Assembly (NCBI RefSeq): GCF_007829955.1
Contig: NZ_VIWX01000003.1
Coordinates: forward strand, 434,001-498,000
DNA length: 64,000 bases
Origin: Saccharopolyspora dendranthemae
GTDB lineage: Bacteria > Actinomycetota > Actinomycetes > Mycobacteriales > Pseudonocardiaceae
Reading direction: 5' to 3'
The position numbers and the translations under genes are program-made. The notes beneath the pieces are model-generated. The model was not told the origin of the DNA, searched no databases, and worked only from the letters and a program-made list of their open reading frames with translations. Below are positions 1,589-3,933 of the stretch, piece by piece; within the stretch, counting starts at the first letter, position 1; the number at the start of each line of letters is the position of its first letter.

Positions 1589-2041
1589 GTGAAGATCATC
1601 CTCACTGCTGACGTGTCCGGTCTCGGCGAGTCCGGCGACATCGTCGAGGTCAAGGACGGTTACGCGCGGAACTACCTGCTGCCCCGCAACGTGGCCATCG
1701 TGGCCACCAAGGGTGCGCAGAAGCAGGTGGAGACCATCCGCCGCGTCCAGGAGAACCGCCGCGTGCGGAACCTGGAGCACGCCCACGAGCTCAAGCAGCA
1801 GCTGCAGAACCTGGACGCGGTCACGCTGACCGCCAAGGTCTCCCCGCAGGGCAAGCTGTTCGGCTCGATCACCAGCGGCGACGTCGTCGCGGCTGTTCGC
1901 AAGGCCGGTGGCCCGAACATCGACAAGCGTTCGGTCTCGCTGCGCGGCCACATCAAGTCGCTGGGCAAGCACATCGTCGATGTGCAGCTGCACCCTGACG
2001 TGACGGCCAACGTCAACGTCCAGGTCACCGGCGACAAGTGA
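1589..2041 (+). CDS. rplI: 50S ribosomal protein L9
   Basis: L9 binds 23S rRNA near the L1 stalk and helps keep the reading frame. The 150-residue product starts at GTG 1589 after an AGAAAGGA-type site. The N-terminal rRNA-binding domain (MKIILTADVSGLGESGDIVEVK, given here in part as KIILTADVSGLGESG) is followed by the long central helix (about 45-75) and the C-terminal domain. It is the last gene of the ribosomal/ssb operon; a 12-bp hairpin follows. Confidence 0.97.
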   Translation: MKIILTADVSGLGESGDIVEVKDGYARNYLLPRNVAIVATKGAQKQVETIRRVQENRRVRNLEHAHELKQQLQNLDAVTLTAKVSPQGKLFGSITSGDVVAAVRKAGGPNIDKRSVSLRGHIKSLGKHIVDVQLHPDVTANVNVQVTGDK

Positions 2042-2113: not shown

Positions 2114-2205
2114 GTCCCGGCCGCGCACTGGCGGTCACGATGATCTCTCGCTGATCACGCACCGCTGTTGATTGCGACACGCCGATGGTGGCGACACGCC
2201 GGGAG

Positions 2206-2370
2206 TTTTCCACGGATTTCTTCCACAGCTTATCCGCAGGCTCTGAACTGGGGTTTCTAGTCGATCAAGGCTACTTGTCCCCAAGTTGTCCCCAGTGGCC
2301 CGAAACGCTGTCCGGAGTTATCCCCACCTCGGATCAAGCTATCCACAGGTTGTCCCGAGGTTTATCCACA
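2206..2370 (+). promoter_or_regulatory. Cluster of DnaA-box-like 9-mers upstream of dnaB
   Basis: Nine 9-mers match TTRTCCACA at 7-9 positions, all on the + strand within 165 bp: TTTTCCACG (2206), TCTTCCACA (2219), TTATCCGCA (2230), TTGTCCCCA (2275 and 2286), TTATCCCCA (2318), CTATCCACA (2339), TTGTCCCGA (2350) and the perfect TTATCCACA (2362). The non-coding gap between rplI and dnaB (2042-2535) holds this array and no credible gene. Likely roles are DnaA control of dnaB transcription, DnaA titration, or an accessory helicase-loading site. The main oriC is less likely because dnaA and dnaN are not nearby. Confidence 0.75.
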
Positions 2371-2535
2371 ACTTGAGTTGCCTGCTCTATGCGGGCGATC
2401 TAACTTCGCGCGCGGACGCCCATGCCTACGGTGAGTCTCAGTACGCACGTGGCGTGGACGCGGGAGGACTAGAAGGTTCGGCCACGTGGGTTGCACGGGC
2501 GAGAAGGCTGCTGGCGGAGGAGGTGACGGGGTCCG

Positions 2536-3933
2536 GTGACGGTTCCCGACGATCGGGAGGACGACCCGTACTTCACCGACAGCGGTGGAGCCCCTGGCGC
2601 TGCGAGCACGTTCGAGCGCCAGCCCCCGCAGGATCTGGCGGCCGAGCAGTCCGTGCTCGGCGGCATGATGCTGAGCAAGGACGCGATCGCCGACGTGGTC
2701 GAGGCGCTGAGTCCGAGCGACTTCTACCGGCCCGCGCACCAGGCGATCTACGACTGCGTCCTGGACCTCTACGGCCGTGGTGAACCGGCCGACGCGATCA
2801 CGGTCTCCGCCGAGCTGGAGCGCCGCCAGGAACTGGTCAAGGTCGGCGGTGCTCCCTACCTGCACACGCTGATCTCCACGGTTCCCACGGCCGCGAACGC
2901 CGGCTACTACGCGGAGATCGTCTCGGAGAAGGCGATCCTGCGCCGCCTGGTGGAGGCGGGCACCCGCATCGTGCAGCTGGGCTACCACGGCTCGGAGGGC
3001 GCGGCGATCGAAGAGGTCGTGGACCGCGCACAGGCGTCGATCTACGACGTCACCGAGCGCAAGGCCAGCGAGGACTACCACGCCCTGGAGGAGCTCCTCC
3101 AGCCCACGATGGACGAGATCGACGCGATCGCGTCCCGGGGCGGCGAGTCCCAGGGCATCCCCACCGGCTTCGCGGACCTCGACGCCTTGACCAACGGCCT
3201 CCACGCAGGCCAGATGATCATCGTCGCGGCGAGGCCAGGTGTGGGCAAGAGCACACTAGGACTGGATTTTGCCAGGTCAGCGTCCGTGAAGCACGGCATG
3301 GCGAGCGTCATCTTCTCGCTGGAGATGGGGCGCACGGAGATCGTGATGCGCATGCTCTCCGCCGAGGCGCGCATCCGCTTGGGCGACATGCGCGGTGGCC
3401 GCATGACCGACGACGACTGGACCCGGCTGGCCCGCCGGATGAGCGAGATCAGCGAAGCGCCGATCTACGTCGACGACTCGCCGAACCTGACGATGATGGA
3501 GATCCGCGCGAAGGCCCGGCGTCTCAAGCAGCGTCACGACATCCAGCTCATCGTCGTGGACTACATGCAGCTGATGACCTCGGGCAAGCGCGTCGAGTCC
3601 CGTCAGCAGGAGGTCTCGGAGTTCTCCCGAAACCTCAAGCTGCTGGCCAAGGAGCTCGAAGTGCCGCTGGTCGCGATCTCCCAGCTCAACCGAGGTCCGG
3701 AACAGCGAACGGACAAGAAGCCGCAGCTCTCCGACCTGCGCGAATCCGGTTCGCTGGAGCAGGACGCGGACATGGTGATCCTGATCCACCGCCCCGACGC
3801 CTTCGAACGCGATGACCCGCGCATGGGCGAGGCGGACCTGATGGTCGCCAAGCACCGTGCCGGCCCCACGGCCACGATCACGGTCGCCCACCAGCTCCAC
3901 TACAGCCGTTTCGTCGACATGGCCCAGGAGTAG
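2536..3933 (+). CDS. dnaB: Replicative DNA helicase DnaB
   Basis: DnaB is the hexameric helicase that unwinds DNA at the replication fork. The 465-residue product has the N-terminal collar domain (about 30-130, DLAAEQSVLGGMM), a RecA-type core with Walker A ARPGVGKST (about 231-239), Walker B LIVVDYMQLM (about 338-347) and DLRESGSLEQDADM further on. It starts at GTG 2536 after GGAGGAGGTGA. The length is that of an uninterrupted DnaB; the inteins common in actinobacterial dnaB are absent. The array of DnaA boxes 165-330 nt upstream suggests DnaA-linked control. Confidence 0.96.
   Translation: MTVPDDREDDPYFTDSGGAPGAASTFERQPPQDLAAEQSVLGGMMLSKDAIADVVEALSPSDFYRPAHQAIYDCVLDLYGRGEPADAITVSAELERRQELVKVGGAPYLHTLISTVPTAANAGYYAEIVSEKAILRRLVEAGTRIVQLGYHGSEGAAIEEVVDRAQASIYDVTERKASEDYHALEELLQPTMDEIDAIASRGGESQGIPTGFADLDALTNGLHAGQMIIVAARPGVGKSTLGLDFARSASVKHGMASVIFSLEMGRTEIVMRMLSAEARIRLGDMRGGRMTDDDWTRLARRMSEISEAPIYVDDSPNLTMMEIRAKARRLKQRHDIQLIVVDYMQLMTSGKRVESRQQEVSEFSRNLKLLAKELEVPLVAISQLNRGPEQRTDKKPQLSDLRESGSLEQDADMVILIHRPDAFERDDPRMGEADLMVAKHRAGPTATITVAHQLHYSRFVDMAQE

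Follow-up and report, generated by a model that had tools for sequence, protein, structure and literature searches.

Why should dnaB, which encodes the replicative helicase, be preceded by a dense cluster of sequences resembling binding sites for the initiator DnaA? Nine such sequences lie just upstream of dnaB in the stretch of DNA analyzed here (the window: 64,000 nt, C3:434001-498000 of a 6.41-Mb genome in eight contigs). An initial annotation of this sequence offered three possibilities: that the boxes tie helicase supply to DnaA, that they titrate DnaA, or that they form an extra DnaA-loading site. The first of these is best supported: with a probability of about three in four, the array serves to place the dnaB promoter under the control of DnaA, and dnaB is most likely activated through it.

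The genome is taken as that of a Saccharopolyspora: among the best 80 of at least 590 matches, the closest named DnaB is that of Saccharopolyspora subtropica (91% identical). By Pfam, the genes at the left end of the window are rpsF, ssb, rplI, and dnaB, with rpsR placed between ssb and rplI by inspection; the boxes sit inside the 494-bp rplI-dnaB gap (Table 1). A DnaA domain match is found at C3:299881-300366 on the minus strand, and the dnaN-dnaA gap, with 19 box-like matches at up to two mismatches (C3:298371-298826), is evidently oriC. Some 138 kb of the same contig separate it from the dnaB array.

Sequence and density of the boxes

A recount with TTRTCCACA, allowing up to two mismatches, gives nine matches spanning exactly 2206-2370, as first annotated. 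All are on the forward strand: one is perfect, five have one mismatch, and three have two, so that the imperfect boxes match at seven or eight of nine positions. With the strict sequence TTATCCACA as query there are eight, TTGTCCCGA at 2350 then having three mismatches.

TABLE 1. Features of the rplI-dnaB region, in window coordinates. Mismatches are to TTRTCCACA; a box was counted as kept if it had no more than two mismatches at the aligned position, in an alignment of the rplI-dnaB gap from 22 Saccharopolyspora genomes (the window's and 21 others).
Feature	Position	Strand	Sequence	Remarks
rplI, ribosomal protein L9, upstream neighbor	1589-2041	+		ORF list; Pfam Ribosomal_L9_N and L9_C
First tandem repeat	2175-2183	+	CGACACGCC	Contains GACAC; identical in 18/22 genus members
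Second tandem repeat	2192-2200	+	CGACACGCC	17 bp after first; identical in 16/22 genus members
DnaA box 1	2206-2214	+	TTTTCCACG	2 mismatches; no more than 2 in 18/21 other genus members
DnaA box 2	2219-2227	+	TCTTCCACA	2 mismatches; kept in 21/21 other genus members
DnaA box 3	2230-2238	+	TTATCCGCA	1 mismatch; kept in only 4/21, unconserved in genus
DnaA box 4	2275-2283	+	TTGTCCCCA	1 mismatch; kept in 21/21, each with 1 mismatch
DnaA box 5	2286-2294	+	TTGTCCCCA	1 mismatch; 11 bp after box 4; kept in 21/21
DnaA box 6	2318-2326	+	TTATCCCCA	1 mismatch; kept in 21/21
DnaA box 7	2339-2347	+	CTATCCACA	1 mismatch; kept in 21/21
DnaA box 8	2350-2358	+	TTGTCCCGA	2 mismatches; kept in 19/21
DnaA box 9	2362-2370	+	TTATCCACA	Perfect; closest to promoter-like pair; kept in 20/21, perfect TTRTCCACA in 16
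Promoter-like pair (inferred)	2378-2406	+	TTGCCT-17 bp-TAACTT	Starts 7 bp after box 9; TTGCCT 2378-2383, TAACTT 2401-2406
Ribosome-binding-site-like sequence	2516-2523	+	GGAGGAGG	Identical in 21/22 genus members
dnaB, replicative DNA helicase	2536-3933	+		ORF list; Pfam DnaB and DnaB_C

The expectation that such a density would rarely arise by chance was borne out. Among 5000 first-order Markov sequences, from a model trained on the array's own 165 bp and with only the forward strand counted, the mean was 0.56 matches and the maximum five; none reached nine. No 165-bp stretch in the rest of the window has more than four. Equal density elsewhere, which had been named as evidence against the idea, is found within 400 kb of contig around oriC only in the oriC region itself, where the densest 165-bp window also has nine matches. 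Counting only matches with at most one mismatch over the same 400 kb, the array is joint top with six, tied with a cluster at C3:236927. The stricter pattern TTRTCCNCA occurs 95 times in the 6.41 Mb, five of them here within 141 bp; the same pattern written backwards occurs 60 times.

Two further dense clusters were seen on this contig, at C3:236927-237038 (L002) and 269930-270035 (L004), ~61 and 28 kb from oriC. They have eight and five matches respectively, three perfect in each; judging from translations, the first is near sensor-kinase-like and transporter-like genes and the second near oxidoreductase-like genes. These two are possible titration sites.

Conservation, orientation, and phasing

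The upstream regions of 162 dnaB loci, minus the duplicates L154, L155, and L022 (the same as L120), were compared, using as criterion at least four forward boxes within 600 bp. Relatives were drawn from the best 80 of at least 590 matches; the order is represented by loci from 30 of 60 matching genomes (the window's own included), the class search by 30 of 99, and the class level by three of four genomes. The boxes are conserved, the check that the initial annotation had proposed: in related genomes, which are not independent samples, four or more are found in 22/22 Saccharopolyspora, 5/5 other members of the family, 23/24 loci of the same order, 3/3 class-level loci, 35/35 Streptomyces, and 37/39 other named actinomycete loci (37/44 when five displaced dnaB copies, discussed below, are included). 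The misses, one in the order (L141) and two among the named loci (L053 and L087), have three forward boxes each. Outside the class, the figure is only 3/25, in a set that includes two loci (L167 and L182) with little or no upstream DNA. Within the genus, eight of the nine boxes are retained in 18-21 of the 21 other members.

Control motifs do much less well. In the genus, family, order, class-level, Streptomyces, named, and outside sets, in that order, the reversed motif reaches four copies in 0, 0, 2, 0, 0, 2, and 1 loci; the complement motif in 0, 0, 0, 0, 0, 3, and 1; and reverse-strand boxes in 1, 0, 5, 1, 1, 3, and 2. The first 600 bp of the dnaB coding sequence average 0.00 forward matches with at most one mismatch in every set within the class; at up to two mismatches, the average is 0.05 in the genus and 1.51 in Streptomyces, vs. 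6.51 upstream of dnaB in the latter.

Orientation is strongly biased. At no more than one mismatch, 467 of 531 boxes within the class sets face dnaB; forward:reverse counts are 113:0 (genus), 22:0 (family), 63:6 (order), 10:6 (class level), 129:15 (other named loci), and 130:37 (Streptomyces). When up to two mismatches are allowed, a locus of the genus has on average 9.3 forward and 2.1 reverse boxes.

The spacing is also regular. With one representative for each of 20 genera, the gaps between successive forward boxes are mostly 11-12, 21-24, 31-34, 42-45, or 53-56 bp, with off-pattern values including 13, 20, 35, 40, 60, and 76 bp; a step of 11 bp leaves 2 bp between adjacent 9-bp boxes. For the 86 gaps of 9-60 bp, the best period is 11.0 bp, with a coherence of 0.82. 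In 2000 random box placements, a null that ignores relatedness and was scanned at 20 periods vs. 80 for the data (both including 11.0), the maximum coherence was 0.44, and none reached 0.82. Since the boxes are mostly in steps of ~11 bp, DnaA molecules bound to them would lie on one face of the helix. In Escherichia coli oriC, oriented arrays of low-affinity boxes guide DnaA oligomers, with a preference for DnaA-ATP (PMC4285127); by analogy, guided oligomers of this type may also form at the dnaB array.

A generic scan of 1900-2700 for E. coli-type sigma-70 promoters and terminators gave no match; the promoter proposed here comes from comparison across genera. The hexamer pair in Table 1 is well conserved in the genus: the first is TTGCCT in 18/22 genomes and the second TAGCTT in 21/22, with TAACTT in the window's genome. 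In 14 of the 20 genera, a pair of the form TTG-N16-19-TANNNT begins within 40 bp of the last box, and the other six gave none by the same rule; shuffled sequences averaged 0.19, with two at most, and the reverse strand of the same stretches gave none. In seven genera (the window's included), 7 bp separate the last box from the first hexamer; the distance is 18-19 bp in five, 5 bp in Streptomyces, and 32 bp in one, the gaps of 18-19 bp amounting to one further box step. The putative promoter would adjoin the boxes.

A mechanism can be outlined from these features. DnaA would bind mostly sub-consensus boxes, all facing dnaB, in an array that ends just upstream of the promoter-like element and in phase with it. 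Around initiation, when DnaA (probably DnaA-ATP) should be plentiful, bound molecules could assemble into a cooperative head-to-tail complex, which would most likely stimulate RNA polymerase and so raise the supply of helicase. That supply may be tied to DnaA, as the initial annotation suggested, is well supported by boxes that are conserved, oriented, and phased to a promoter-like element. The idea gains further from the fact that they follow dnaB rather than a chromosomal position, and from published DnaA occupancy in mycobacteria (PMC7738170).

Linkage to dnaB, known DnaA sites, and alternatives

In Streptomyces, rplI and dnaB are ~2 kb apart. Over 35 such gaps, 167 of 168 boxes with at most one mismatch, on either strand, are in the last 600 bp before dnaB; the remaining one is mid-gap, and the first 500 bp after rplI have none. 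Where dnaB is displaced or paralogous, at least four boxes are found in none of six loci, a class defined only once their lack of boxes had been noticed. A search for further dnaB genes in five genomes with a boxless one revealed another full copy in four; these other copies have 4-6 forward boxes and a pair of CRACACGCC repeats (described below), while the displaced copies have 0-1 boxes and no pair. In the fifth genome, a MAG (L055), only the boxless copy was found. Among the displaced loci, L124 is a 27%-identical second match in a genome whose main dnaB copy has boxes, and L040 is the Pseudonocardia dioxanivorans plasmid pPSED02 record, a second dnaB without the array. The second copies at L040, L038, L056, and L081 are 70-81% identical to the N-terminal part of the window's DnaB.

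The boxes were also considered as a mark of the rplI end, or of the locus as such; the Streptomyces gaps and the displaced dnaB copies speak against this.

The presence of DnaA upstream of dnaB is already known from Mycobacterium tuberculosis and M. smegmatis, and the array is probably a further case. Five DnaA-bound regions were mapped in M. tuberculosis by IDAP-seq, one of them upstream of dnaB (in the Rv0057 region), and homologs of the five were found in M. smegmatis by ChIP-seq (PMC7738170). In the I282T DnaA mutant, the dnaB promoter is bound less and dnaB is under-expressed (PMC7738170); this evidence for activation comes from one mutant allele. The mycobacterial site is in the same place as the Saccharopolyspora array, with binding measured in the one case and predicted in the other; class-wide conservation, box orientation, 11-bp phasing, and CRACACGCC repeats were not found in its description (PMC7738170). 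More distantly, in another phylum, dnaB of Caulobacter crescentus has predicted upstream DnaA boxes and DnaA-dependent expression, being counted as a member of the DnaA regulon (reviewed in PMC8203912). A search of open-licence papers, in which absence means little, yielded no description of the class-wide, promoter-phased layout or of the neighboring tandem CRACACGCC.

Counterparts of four of the five mycobacterial regions were looked at in the present genome, and boxes were found at all four: the oriC-like region, a stretch immediately before the point where dnaA likely starts (C3:301310-301342), the crgA gap, and dnaB. The third of these has two DnaA boxes, at C3:284523-284544 (L005), between crgA and a gene for a bacterial PH-domain protein. 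Taking Rv0011c to be crgA, this gap probably corresponds to the Rv0010c-Rv0011c DnaA region of M. tuberculosis.

The array could conceivably serve instead as a titration site, delaying re-initiation, with dnaB as a mere neighbor. A cluster of DnaA boxes reportedly regulates replication in Streptomyces, and the D78 cluster of S. coelicolor is such a titration site, with dense boxes outside oriC; one of the clusters D78 and H24 may lie near dnaB. The open-licence literature, where absence means little, gave no paper naming D78 and H24 together with DnaA and Streptomyces. The array shares its density outside oriC with datA of E. coli (PMC5835720), is on the same contig as oriC, ~138 kb away, and has company in the other box clusters within ~62 kb of oriC. 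Unlike datA and D78, it is tied to the promoter of one gene by orientation, phase, and linkage. A sink for DnaA needs neither uniform orientation toward dnaB nor phasing with a promoter, and should not follow dnaB across broken synteny, as the Streptomyces array does; the displaced dnaB copies without an array point the same way. By the criterion adopted here, that a titration site should have a position and orientation independent of its neighbor gene, the array behaves differently, following dnaB and mostly facing it. Titration may occur as a side effect; as the array's main role it is unlikely, leaving the link to dnaB, the orientation, and the phasing unexplained.

If DnaA does act on the dnaB promoter, it might repress it, so that helicase would be made in a pulse only at low DnaA levels. 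There are precedents: E. coli dnaA is fully repressed by DnaA-ATP, and reports of DnaA autoregulation exist for S. lividans and slow-growing mycobacteria (PMC8203912). A filament next to a promoter can, moreover, exclude RNA polymerase. Repression is given slightly less credence even than titration, as every box precedes the promoter-like element, placed as activator sites would be, and in M. tuberculosis less DnaA binding goes with less dnaB expression (PMC7738170). Activation, with the boxes as an upstream DnaA-binding region, is accordingly the preferred form of DnaA control.

That the boxes form an auxiliary origin, or a DnaA-dependent helicase-loading site beside dnaB, is very improbable. 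A DnaA filament could start on nine boxes that all face one way, but the rplI-dnaB gap was found to have no AT-rich unwinding element, its best 30 bp being 60% AT vs. 77% in the dnaN-dnaA gap, the site of an ordinary oriC-like region.

Possible further inputs to dnaB, and outlook

Directly upstream of the DnaA boxes are two tandem CGACACGCC repeats. A CRACACGCC pair is found in the same place at many Pseudonocardiaceae, Mycobacterium, Nocardia, and Rhodococcus loci, with its units 26-28 bp apart, the spacing of most other genera that have it; in most Saccharopolyspora the distance is 17 bp, shorter by about one helical turn. Among 61 genomes from the order, there are 33 matches to CRACACGCC-N8-20-CGACACGCC and 13 to its backwards version. 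In the 12 genomes of two families, f1 (the window's) and f8, 12 of 16 matches are at dnaB, one per genome; in the remaining 49 genomes, none of 17 is, the positions of matches and dnaB having been compared by eye. From the named loci, f1 would be the Pseudonocardiaceae and f8 the Mycobacterium/Nocardia group. Two further Saccharopolyspora genomes have no exact match to the pair. Among the matches away from dnaB, a CGACACGCC pair in genome G055, at L198:2206-2239 on the minus strand, is upstream of genes whose translations read as nrdH and nrdE, with ACACTAGGTGTAGTGT nearby; the latter resembles an NrdR box.

Both repeats contain GACAC, the core motif of WhiA in Streptomyces (PMC3781837). WhiA is a candidate for a regulator acting through the pair, but no more than that, given how common GACAC is in genomes of this kind. 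The main texts of PMC3781837 and PMC4850268 do not contain the word dnaB, and no paper combining WhiA, GACAC, and dnaB was found in the open-licence literature, in which absence means little.

Many relatives also have close matches to the LexA-box-like sequence TCGAAC-N4-GTTCGA between the promoter and the dnaB start. They are ~10-240 bp upstream of dnaB at L026, L029-L031, L036, L045, L047-L052, L125-L132, and others. The window has no such box at up to three mismatches, and the 21 other Saccharopolyspora have only two poor matches. In M. tuberculosis, dnaB is named among promoters regulated by an SOS box (PMC8151990).

It is tempting to see in all this an ancestral switch for helicase supply, with the tandem CRACACGCC as an added input in two families and a LexA box in many lineages, but this broader picture is tentative, and rather less likely to be right than wrong. 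If it is true, most of the class Actinomycetes would have a mostly unidirectional, 11-bp-phased array in register with the dnaB promoter, on which an oriC-like DnaA filament doubles as a transcription activator. The CRACACGCC pair would be a nearly dnaB-specific second input, possibly for WhiA or a WhiA/WhiB complex, in the Pseudonocardiaceae and the Mycobacterium/Nocardia group.

DnaA is better known for initiating replication than for regulating transcription. A conserved array with a geometry evident from sequence offers a simple system for asking whether a DnaA filament on double-stranded boxes activates transcription, and whether levels of initiator and helicase are coupled in actinomycetes; the CRACACGCC pair is a specific and testable lead to a second regulator of dnaB. 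The array agrees with the mycobacterial data that place DnaA at dnaB, and leads one to expect the same site in Streptomyces, Nocardia, Amycolatopsis, and others.
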